From assembly GCA_024403415.1 (NCBI GenBank), contig JAKSRY010000017.1, positions 1-44,682 of the forward strand: a DNA stretch of 44,682 nucleotides, in the 5' to 3' direction. The position numbers were made by a program, and so were the translations under genes. The notes beneath the pieces are model-generated. The model was not told the DNA's origin. It worked only from the letters and a program-made list of their open reading frames with translations, and did not search any database. This document shows positions 5,541 to 8,125 of the stretch, piece by piece (the first letter of the stretch is position 1; each line of letters opens with the position of its first letter). This stretch comes from Lachnospiraceae bacterium. Its GTDB lineage: Bacteria; Bacillota; Clostridia; Lachnospirales; Lachnospiraceae.

Positions 5541-6314
5541 ATGCCAAGAAAACCTCGCGTAATAAGTTCTACCGGCATATATCATATCATTCTTCGTTCT
5601 GTTAATCAGCATATTATTTTTGAAGAAGATTCTGATTATCAAAAATTTCTTTACATTTTATCAGATTGTAAAACCAAATATGATATTGATATTTTTGCCT
5701 ATTGTCTTATGGACAACCATATTCATTTATTAATTTATTCAATGTCTGACTCTTTGTCCAGTTTCTTTCAAAGTTTAGGAACTCGCTTCGCCCGTTGGTA
5801 CAACACTAAATACCTTAGAAGCGGTCACTTATTTCAGGACAGATTCTTTAGTAGCGTTGTTGAAGATGTTCCACACTATCTATCAACACTCGTCTATATC
5901 CACAATAACCCAGTCAAAGCAAATATTTGCCAAAATCCGTCAGAGTACCGATGGAGTAGTTATAATGCCTTTTACGGACAAAAAAATCCTCTGATCAATA
6001 TATCATTTTCACATGATATAGCTGGATCAAAGGATTTATTGATAACTTATTTTTCTAAACATTGTGATGGCGAAGCGTCCGAATATTTTTATAAGGATCA
6101 TCTTGAAGTCACTCATCATTTAACAGATGATCAGGCATTACAAATATTCAAGGCAATAACAAAATTGTCATCTGCCTCTGAAGTTCAATTTCTTCCTAAA
6201 AGAATCAGAAATGACTATATTCGTTCACTAAAACAAAATCGACTAACGCAAAAACAAATTGCAAGGCTGATGGATGTATCAATTACCACTGTCAAGCGAA
6301 TCTGTAGTATATGA
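5541..6314 (+). CDS. REP-associated tyrosine transposase (RAYT, Y1/IS200-like)
   Basis: A 257-residue protein. Residues 1-150 form the Y1 HUH domain: RKPRVISSTGIYHIILR, the metal-binding pair in MDNHIHLL (His60, His62), and the nucleophile region LVYIHNNPVKA with Tyr119. The C-terminal ~50 residues carry an added helix-turn-helix (LTQKQIARLMDVSITTVKRI) seen in many RAYTs. The ATG at 5541 follows TAGGAGA. RAYTs are single-copy housekeeping-type transposases that recognise flanking REP hairpins. Here REP-like copies flank the gene on both sides, and one overlaps its stop codon. All catalytic residues are present, so it may be active. Confidence 0.88.
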   Translation: MPRKPRVISSTGIYHIILRSVNQHIIFEEDSDYQKFLYILSDCKTKYDIDIFAYCLMDNHIHLLIYSMSDSLSSFFQSLGTRFARWYNTKYLRSGHLFQDRFFSSVVEDVPHYLSTLVYIHNNPVKANICQNPSEYRWSSYNAFYGQKNPLINISFSHDIAGSKDLLITYFSKHCDGEASEYFYKDHLEVTHHLTDDQALQIFKAITKLSSASEVQFLPKRIRNDYIRSLKQNRLTQKQIARLMDVSITTVKRICSI

Positions 6315-6368: not shown

Positions 6369-7700
6369 TCACTCCAATTCTTTCATAACACTCATATACG
6401 CGGGGCGGATTATTTTATTCATACAGATAAGTTCTTCTATTCTGTGCGCACTCCAGCCAACAATTCTGGCAATTGCAAAAAGCGGTGTATATAGTTCAAC
6501 CGGAATTCCCAGCATGTCATATACAAACCCGCTGTAGAAATCTACGTTTGGACATACCCCTTTATATATATGCCTGCTGGAATTGATAAGTTTCAGGCCC
6601 TCTTCTTCAACAATGTTGTAGAGTTCCATATCCGAATCCTTACCCTTATTATGAGCGAGTTCTTTAACATACTCCTTAAATATAATTTCGCGAGGATCCG
6701 ATAATGAATAAACGGCATGACCTAATCCATATATAAGTCCTTTATTGTCAAAGACTTCACCTGCTAATATTTTAGAAAGATATGCTCGAATTTCATCGCG
6801 GTCTGTTGTGTCACTTATATTTTCTTTGATATTTTTCATCATTTCCATCACTTTAATATTAGCACCACCATGTTTTGGACCTTTAAGTGATGACATAGCT
6901 GCCGCAATGGCTGAGTATGTATCTGTTCCTGCAGAAGTGACTACTCTGGTTGTAAACGTTGAATTATTACCACCACCATGTTCCATATGAAGTATAAGGG
7001 CAATATCAAGAATATGTGCTTCAAGTGGTGTATATTTTTTATCCGGCCTTAACATAAGCAGTATGTTTTCGGCTGTTGAAAGATTCGGATCCGGTCTATG
7101 AATAAACATACTGTCATAATTTTCAATGTGATTATATGCATGATATCCATATATTGCCAACATAGGAAACTGTGCAATTAACAATAAACATTGTCTTATG
7201 GAATCTTCCAAAGCCATAGAAGATATATTCTCATCATATGATGCCAGCGTAAGTATGCTTCTGGTCATACTGTTCATGATGTCCTTAGACGGAGCCTTCA
7301 TTATAACATCACGCGTGAAGTTGGTGGGTAATGTGCGATTTTCAGATATTATTTTCGTAAATTCAGCATATTCTTTATCCGTTGGTTTTTTACCAAACAA
7401 AAGCAAATATGCTACTTTCTCAAAGCCGAACTCCCCGGGCTTTATTTCATCAATTAACGAGTTAACTTTATAACCTCTATACCACAATTCTCCTTCAACA
7501 GGTACATTCACTCCATCTACATTTTTCATAGATGTAATTTTTGAAATGTTGGTAAGTCCTGTTAATATACCTTTTCCATTAATGTCTCTAAGCCCCCTGT
7601 TTACAGAGTACTTCTCGTACATATTCTCTGTGATATTGTCGTTTTTTAAGCAGATATCTTTCTGCTTTGTTGAATAATCCAAAATGTTTTTCTTTGCCAT
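6369..7700 (-). CDS. Citrate synthase
   Basis: A 443-residue enzyme that condenses acetyl-CoA and oxaloacetate to citrate, feeding 2-oxoglutarate and glutamate synthesis in an anaerobe. The catalytic triad is visible: His241 in HMEHGGGNNSTF, His328 in YGLGHAVYSLSDPR and Asp387 in NVDFYSGFVYDMLGIP. The 2-methylcitrate versus citrate preference cannot be fixed by eye. The ATG at 7700 follows GAAAGGAG. It is monocistronic here; its 5' leader of about 210 nt carries a terminator and looks regulatory (7728-7913). The 3' end is bounded by REP-like copies. Confidence 0.92.
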   Translation of the reverse strand: MAKKNILDYSTKQKDICLKNDNITENMYEKYSVNRGLRDINGKGILTGLTNISKITSMKNVDGVNVPVEGELWYRGYKVNSLIDEIKPGEFGFEKVAYLLLFGKKPTDKEYAEFTKIISENRTLPTNFTRDVIMKAPSKDIMNSMTRSILTLASYDENISSMALEDSIRQCLLLIAQFPMLAIYGYHAYNHIENYDSMFIHRPDPNLSTAENILLMLRPDKKYTPLEAHILDIALILHMEHGGGNNSTFTTRVVTSAGTDTYSAIAAAMSSLKGPKHGGANIKVMEMMKNIKENISDTTDRDEIRAYLSKILAGEVFDNKGLIYGLGHAVYSLSDPREIIFKEYVKELAHNKGKDSDMELYNIVEEEGLKLINSSRHIYKGVCPNVDFYSGFVYDMLGIPVELYTPLFAIARIVGWSAHRIEELICMNKIIRPAYMSVMKELE

Positions 7701-7727
7701 GTGTTTGTTCTCCTTTCAATCAATCCT

Positions 7728-7913
7728 ATATAACGCAAAAAACCACCATAAAGGTGGCAGGATGAATAGCACGCATGACAAATAATGCTGCAAATCCTCT
7801 GCCTGACGAAATTAGCTGACGGGCTGGGCTGAGGTAGCCTTCCTATACAGGATACGCCCCAAAAATTGGTTCTTCCGCTGCTTAAATAAGCACTCGACAT
7901 TTTTGCTTTTTGT
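7728..7913 (-). ncRNA. Candidate riboswitch/attenuator leader of citrate synthase
   Basis: On the minus strand a leader runs from a putative start near 7913. One stem-loop is GGGGC (7860-7856) with GCCC (7829-7826), enclosing GTA/TAC and TCCT-GTAT-AGGA. GGCA..GGAT (7803-7794) can pair with ATCC..TGCC (7763-7756). Finally CCACC-TTTAT-GGTGG (7757-7743) is followed by TTTTTT, an intrinsic terminator about 40 nt before the citrate synthase start. The TGCC arm of the long-range helix shares two bases with the terminator stem, so they compete. It does not match any riboswitch consensus that I recall. Confidence 0.6.
7737..7757 (-). terminator. Leader terminator before citrate synthase
   Basis: The 5-bp GC-rich stem CCACC/GGTGG with a TTTAT loop is followed by six T's. 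It lies between the promoter and the gene it precedes, which implies premature termination as a control step. Confidence 0.7.
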
Positions 7914-7919
7914 AAGTTC

Positions 7920-7925
7920 ATTATA
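7920..7925 (-). promoter_or_regulatory. -10 box for the citrate synthase leader
   Basis: TATAAT on the minus strand, about 220 nt upstream of the gene. No convincing -35 hexamer is seen, but a GTTCA..TGAAC inverted repeat (about 7929-7950) overlaps the -35 zone and could be an operator. Confidence 0.45.
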
Positions 7926-8010
7926 ATATATGAGTTCACAGTACTCTATGAACATATTATTAACAATTTAAAAATTTTTATTAAGAATGCAATTAGATTC
8001 TTTGAATATT

Positions 8011-8039
8011 AAAAAATCCCTCCTTTGAAAAGGAGGGAT
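8011..8039 (-). terminator. Rho-independent terminator of the chemoreceptor gene
   Basis: On the minus strand, TCCCTCCTT pairs with AAGGAGGGA, followed by TTTTTT. It lies about 125 bp downstream of the chemoreceptor stop. The rest of 7940-8164 holds only REP-like copy 5. Confidence 0.85.
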
Positions 8040-8125
8040 AATAAAAGAATATCGCTATCATATTTCTAAAAGACAGTACAAAACTGATGGCATATTAAAT
8101 ACTACCGTCATACGAATCAGTAGTA

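Follow-up and report, generated by a model that had tools for sequence, protein, structure and literature searches.

A diverged c-di-AMP-class riboswitch upstream of citrate synthase in a Lachnospiraceae bacterium: a probable transcriptional OFF switch

By sequence comparison, the leader RNA of a citrate synthase gene from a Lachnospiraceae bacterium belongs to the c-di-AMP (ydaO) riboswitch class as a diverged copy. The class is a known one, the citrate synthase target is unusual, and comparisons in two lineages support the pairing. It is highly probable that the leader serves as a transcriptional OFF switch for the gene, with c-di-AMP most likely stopping citrate synthase transcription. The computed basis for this reading consists of the class match, conservation, gene linkage in two lineages and competing helices, from which we infer the ligand c-di-AMP, the direction of control and the physiology.

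The initial annotation had described a leader of about 210 nucleotides before citrate synthase in the 44.7-kb window (the whole stretch of DNA that was analysed), and this description holds. The leader is approximately 213 nt long and lies on the minus strand upstream of the gene at 7700-6369, which is identified as citrate synthase by NF010635 (674 bits, cut-off 426). The features that enter the argument are as follows.

6369..7700, minus strand: citrate synthase gene, 443 aa, NF010635 match
7710..7715, minus strand: ribosome-binding site AAGGAG, read in the sequence
7742..7758, minus strand: intrinsic terminator stem-loop from the terminator scan, -9.8 kcal/mol, with its U tract reaching 7737
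7756..7763, minus strand: candidate antiterminator partner AUCCUGCC, overlapping the base of the terminator 5' arm
7792..7909, minus strand: c-di-AMP (ydaO/yuaA) riboswitch aptamer, RF00379 match
7794..7803, minus strand: putative switch strand GGCAGAGGAU, either P1 3' strand plus pseudoknot strand or part of the antiterminator
7800..7803, minus strand: P1 3' strand GGCA, from the RF00379 alignment
7831..7834, minus strand: loop bases CCUC, candidate pseudoknot partner, complementary to GAGG at 7799-7796
7896..7899, minus strand: P1 5' strand UGUC, from the RF00379 alignment
7902..7906, minus strand: 5' GCAAA, which in folds pairs with UUUGC at 7794-7790 or with the U-rich stretch past the terminator
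7920..7925, minus strand: -10 box TATAAT of the putative promoter, read in the sequence, with TATAAT or TATACT at a like place in all nine related leaders

The start of the leader is placed, provisionally, by the TATAAT at 7925-7920. A promoter scan of a 3.5-kb region performed at chance level (12 sites versus 12.5 expected), and 23-30 nt before P1 the motif TATAAT recurs in eight of nine related leaders, with TATACT in the remaining one. The inverted repeat that had been reported over the promoter does exist as two 9-nt arms (7913-7921 and 7948-7956, 89%), but it is weak, and by eye the promoter-side arm is lost in locus L129 and altered in L016, whose citrate synthases are 92% and 98% identical to that of the window. 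Because the repeat is weak and this arm is not kept in L129, its role as an operator was rejected. The upstream neighbour is a chemotaxis receptor gene ended by a strong terminator at 8039-8016 (minus strand), which makes the leader look like a separate transcription unit. This same terminator is most likely all there is to a weak L10-leader-like match at 8002-8060 (25.7 bits, gathering threshold 44). Immediately past citrate synthase, on the plus strand, lies a gene resembling a REP-associated tyrosine transposase (5541-6314; 73.5 bits, under the cut-off of 80). Carriage of the switch by a mobile element was considered and dropped: there was no plasmid blastn match, and one exact 28-base pattern was absent from viral contigs.

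The hairpin in the leader had been called stable. Folding of 195 nt of leader gave no excess stability over shuffled sequences (z 0.23; 114 of 200 shuffles were at least as good), and thermodynamic stability is thus unsupported as evidence for the leader. The terminator scan returned three sites in 3.5 kb where 1.5 ± 1.3 were expected, which alone is not striking. Since folding, promoter and terminator scans are each unremarkable when taken alone, the case is carried by the covariance model and by the relatives.

RF00379 aligns to 7909-7792 on the minus strand over its full length (model positions 1-134 of 134; 57.1 bits, gathering threshold 38, E 9.4e-11 in the window search) and is the sole Rfam match above the gathering threshold in the window. 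The initial annotation had assigned the leader to no class and had named a hit to a known Rfam family as a refutation; that part of its claim falls with this match, which rules out an orphan class, and the claim of a riboswitch stands. Its remark that citrate synthase is not a usual riboswitch target, the point in favour of an unassigned riboswitch or attenuator class, was borne out. Against such a class are the full-length match in the window, matches at 6 of the 11 citrate synthase loci scanned, and the retention of near-invariant RF00379 positions, which together leave it a negligible chance. The usual gene context of ydaO (ion and osmolyte transport, osmolyte synthesis and the cell wall) is not matched by a citrate synthase target; this context is an association and not a defining criterion of RF00379.

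Relatives of the RNA were sought by a citrate synthase protein scan of genome contigs, from which the best 80 of 226 loci were kept, and by an RF00379 scan of 11 of these 80. Six loci (L016, L017, L018, L020, L021 and L022) have the same aptamer directly upstream of citrate synthase, with RF00379 scores of 45.6-59.9 bits compared with 72-116 bits for the ordinary aptamers fetched; the aptamer of L020 contains undetermined bases. A covariance model built on six of the variants, R1, found no further variant at E 0.01 or better over the best 80 of 226 loci, some of whose upstream stretches are short (200 nt at L078). Two more variants, L128 and L129, each preceding citrate synthase, came from searching 97 genomes akin to one carrier, together with four ordinary-scoring matches. 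With the window, the total is nine loci in nine genomes, and all nine precede citrate synthase. R1 scores them at 113-145 bits versus at most 73 bits for ordinary aptamers, having been trained on six of the nine variants that it separates. Searches of more than 40 genomes used stricter filters under which weak copies can be missed, and within this limit the sample of the window's family yielded RF00379 matches in 10 of 397 genomes, an R1 variant in one of the 397 (the window's own) and eight ordinary-scoring matches. Five congeners of the window's genome gave no match above the cut-off. An ordinary aptamer of the same family, L014, precedes an ABC ATPase with a CBS domain; its 5' half, GUCGAGUGC...GCAGCGG, is common to the citrate synthase variants, near whose ancestor this aptamer may stand.

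A citrate synthase tree was built from 60 of 99 proteins, 39 non-carrier rows having been dropped by hand. One supported clade (100/99) holds the nine carriers together with the non-carrier L019, a pattern consistent with a single gain and a single loss. The L019 citrate synthase is 80% identical to that of the window and stands without the riboswitch, which it has apparently lost. Four carriers (G720, G721, G730 and G738) have a single citrate synthase found, the riboswitch-bearing one, and there are two copies in G000 and G719 and three in G723, G724 and G725; the carrier genomes are mostly drafts, so these counts may be low. The other citrate synthase encoded in the window's genome (L102; G000:C41:6536-7846) is 63% identical to the first and without such an RNA; it is neighboured by genes with PLD, CmpB-type ABC and VTT domains, and it groups with those of the congeners G001 and G002.

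How far the variants depart from the class was assessed in an alignment of the nine with 47 ordinary RF00379 aptamers, the latter mostly the best-scoring of those fetched, so that the conservation yardstick leans toward the consensus. By this yardstick, 36 of 39 near-invariant columns (at least 95% in the 47) are identical in all nine variants. The three exceptions are a C to U change in P1 that turns a C-G pair into U-G (one ordinary member has U-A), a G to A change in the next helix that turns G-C into A-U (one ordinary precedent), and an A to U change within GGGGYGAAUC in eight of the nine (precedents in 2 of 47). The P4 extension pair is C-G in all nine variants and in 6 of the 47 ordinary aptamers and U-A in the remaining 41, with the two bases switching together. 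Over the 56 aptamers, 96.1% of helix cells are paired and both partners vary in 17 of 26 pairs (a level reached by 0 of 500 shuffles), in an alignment that was fitted to the tested structure; one pair beside P5 is broken in 39 of 55 sequences. The conservation and covariation among relatives that had been proposed as a check are present. The putative pseudoknot strands, CCUC and GAGG, complement each other in every one of the nine variants, and neither ever varies within the group.

These data bear on whether the aptamer might have decayed, so that it senses nothing and its hairpins amount to a fixed partial terminator. The RF00379 score beneath those of ordinary aptamers and the loss of the aptamer in the clade member L019 would suit such decay. 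Across six loci (15 pairs), however, the aptamer is 85-98% identical versus 38-52% at third codon positions (82.6% for the closest pair, the window and L016), and the antiterminator partners change while their pairs are kept. Decay is accordingly very improbable: preservation of the aptamer while third codon positions diverge, together with the core columns and the covariation, argues for a constrained member of the ydaO class rather than a decayed one.

Whether the constraint is still for c-di-AMP is a separate matter, because the nine variants are tight and stand apart from ordinary aptamers, have one target gene only, and are altered at the last hairpin in its third pair, following base, five-base loop and pseudoknot placement. 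The third pair is C-G in six variants and U-A in three; C-G appears there in two ordinary rows of 47, L010 and L011, which we think are misaligned. The following base is C or U in place of G (U in 3 of 47 ordinary aptamers), the loop has the five bases ACCUC, and the pseudoknot strand abuts P1 directly. A four-pair stem followed at once by A is shared with L012, L013 and L014. A published list of ligand contacts (PMC7288161, Table 1), placed on the variants with a provisional position numbering, suggests that one site shows either no change or changes with ordinary precedents, and that the other site would carry substitutions at three listed positions, C6, A45 and G69. Some substitutions at listed contact positions have few or no ordinary precedents. 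Shifts of ligand are known in other riboswitch classes (PMC10853860), and the variants could form a separate class, fixed on one enzyme, that retains the ydaO fold with an altered ligand or stoichiometry. We regard this as unlikely, whether the change were to one c-di-AMP site only, to another adenine-containing molecule or to a TCA-linked metabolite, given that 36 of the 39 near-invariant positions are kept, that the departures mostly preserve base pairs, and that an unmodified c-di-AMP aptamer precedes citrate synthase in another lineage.

That second lineage emerged from a Clostridia sample in which 113 of 391 genomes had an RF00379 match. Flanks were examined at 166 distinct RF00379 loci among the matches listed, 119 stretches being added to the earlier-fetched loci and some stopping early at contig ends, and citrate synthase adjoins an ordinary riboswitch at four of them: L159 (the same as L300), L203, L245 and L246, all from genus g548 of family f31. 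The order in each is aptamer, terminator, citrate synthase, and two of the four proteins were confirmed with Pfam. These citrate synthases are 54-56% identical and lie far from the window's clade in the tree. Most simply, riboswitch and citrate synthase came together on two occasions, in one of them with an aptamer of the unmodified c-di-AMP type, a reading that favours c-di-AMP as ligand in each lineage; a single ancient origin followed by many losses is conceivable. An ordinary aptamer on citrate synthase elsewhere also indicates that c-di-AMP makes sense as a signal for citrate synthase. In the window's own family, eight of nine ordinary loci were scanned; five of their targets are ion exchangers or antiporters, and the other three are a lysine aminomutase, an ABC ATPase and a solute-binding protein.

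With c-di-AMP as the probable ligand, the switching itself can be drawn from the folds. The long-range helix of the initial annotation is recognizable in the 5' GCAAA, whose pairing with UUUGC at the aptamer 3' end corresponds to the closed aptamer state and whose other partner is the U-rich stretch past the terminator. The terminator with its overlapping arm was likewise recovered as the hairpin 7758-7742; that arm is best drawn as aptamer GGCAG(AGGAU) against (AUC)CUGCC, the GCC of AUCCUGCC forming the base of the terminator's 5' arm. The aptamer 3' strand thus competes for the terminator arm, in keeping with the architecture of a transcription-terminating riboswitch that had been proposed. 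Other leaders allow an equivalent competition between strands of different sequence, the partner changes keeping the pairs. For seven leaders, with strands picked by eye, the summed duplex energy is matched by 0.15% of 2000 shuffles (0.6% without near-duplicates); the antiterminators of single leaders are not striking (shuffle fractions 0.02-0.35). Folds of the growing transcript, from programs that model neither the pseudoknot nor the ligand, give the antiterminator a probability of about 0.99 until the terminator 3' arm emerges. Once this arm is made, the terminator wins without ligand (0.97, falling to 0.90 for the full-length RNA), which means that any read-through would need to be under kinetic control.

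The leader anatomy points to an OFF switch in which high c-di-AMP would turn citrate synthase off, since the terminator 5' arm is complementary to the aptamer 3' strand. The opposite response, with c-di-AMP turning the gene ON, or an action on translation instead of termination, would be easier to reconcile with a terminator that prevails in the ligand-free model of the full-length RNA (0.90) and with the weak U tracts in L021 and L022. The complementarity just described is the published OFF logic (PMC9337991), however, and no pairing to the ribosome-binding site was seen in the folds made; ON or translational control is therefore distinctly unlikely.

In the OFF mechanism that we favour, high c-di-AMP, as when potassium is sufficient, would fold the aptamer, and P1 and the pseudoknot would then hold GGCAGAGGAU. 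With this strand held, the terminator 5' arm would be free, the terminator would form and transcription would stop before the gene. At low c-di-AMP, GGCAGAGGAU would instead pair with AUCCUGCC and delay or block the terminator, so that citrate synthase would be made and more flux could pass to 2-oxoglutarate and glutamate. c-di-AMP tunes potassium and osmolyte handling, and glutamate is the main partner ion of potassium. A diadenylate cyclase domain is found in one gene each in 8 of 8 genomes, namely the genome of L019 and the seven carriers other than G730 and G738. If the mechanism is true, the step toward 2-oxoglutarate and glutamate is under direct RNA control by the potassium and salt messenger c-di-AMP, and a central-metabolism gene joins the c-di-AMP riboswitch regulon. 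The compact aptamer group additionally offers natural changes near one ligand site, and the leader is a simple test construct.

No report of a c-di-AMP riboswitch on citrate synthase was found in the literature searched. PMC3766115 gives the ydaO targets as transporters and cell-wall enzymes, and its main text is without the word "citrate." Where PMC5670726, PMC4342826 and PMC8388888 mention citrate synthase, they do so within a reference or because it is an antisense target, and not as a ydaO target, and the mention of citrate in PMC9337991 is a transporter reference.

Compared with known systems, the RNA of the window resembles the ydaO class in its full-length covariance match, its helices, its 36 of 39 near-invariant positions and its terminator expression platform with OFF anatomy, and differs in its citrate synthase target, the C-G or U-A third pair of the last hairpin, the five-base loop, the U-G pair in P1 and the pseudoknot strand placed right after P1. 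The g548 riboswitches (L300, L245, L246 and L203) share its class, its target enzyme and a terminator between aptamer and gene, but have an ordinary aptamer sequence and a citrate synthase distant in the tree. In the tandem Na+/c-di-AMP riboswitch of Dehalobacter, P1 and pseudoknot bases alternatively pair with the left arm of the terminator, and the response in vitro is OFF (PMC9337991). The competition of aptamer bases for a terminator arm is the same as that proposed here, whereas the gene is lysine-2,3-aminomutase and the aptamer stands in tandem with one for Na+. The level of c-di-AMP increases as potassium does (PMC7288161). Demand for glutamate is high under potassium starvation, and c-di-AMP restrains the entry of carbon into the TCA cycle, and so the supply of glutamate, via pyruvate carboxylase, which it inhibits in Listeria and Lactococcus and controls in Bacillus through DarB (PMC8822347, PMC5919688). 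These ties of c-di-AMP to potassium, glutamate and pyruvate carboxylase are what make a link to citrate synthase sensible. Control of pyruvate carboxylase differs from that proposed for the window in being protein-mediated, in acting on the enzyme and in falling one pathway step earlier.
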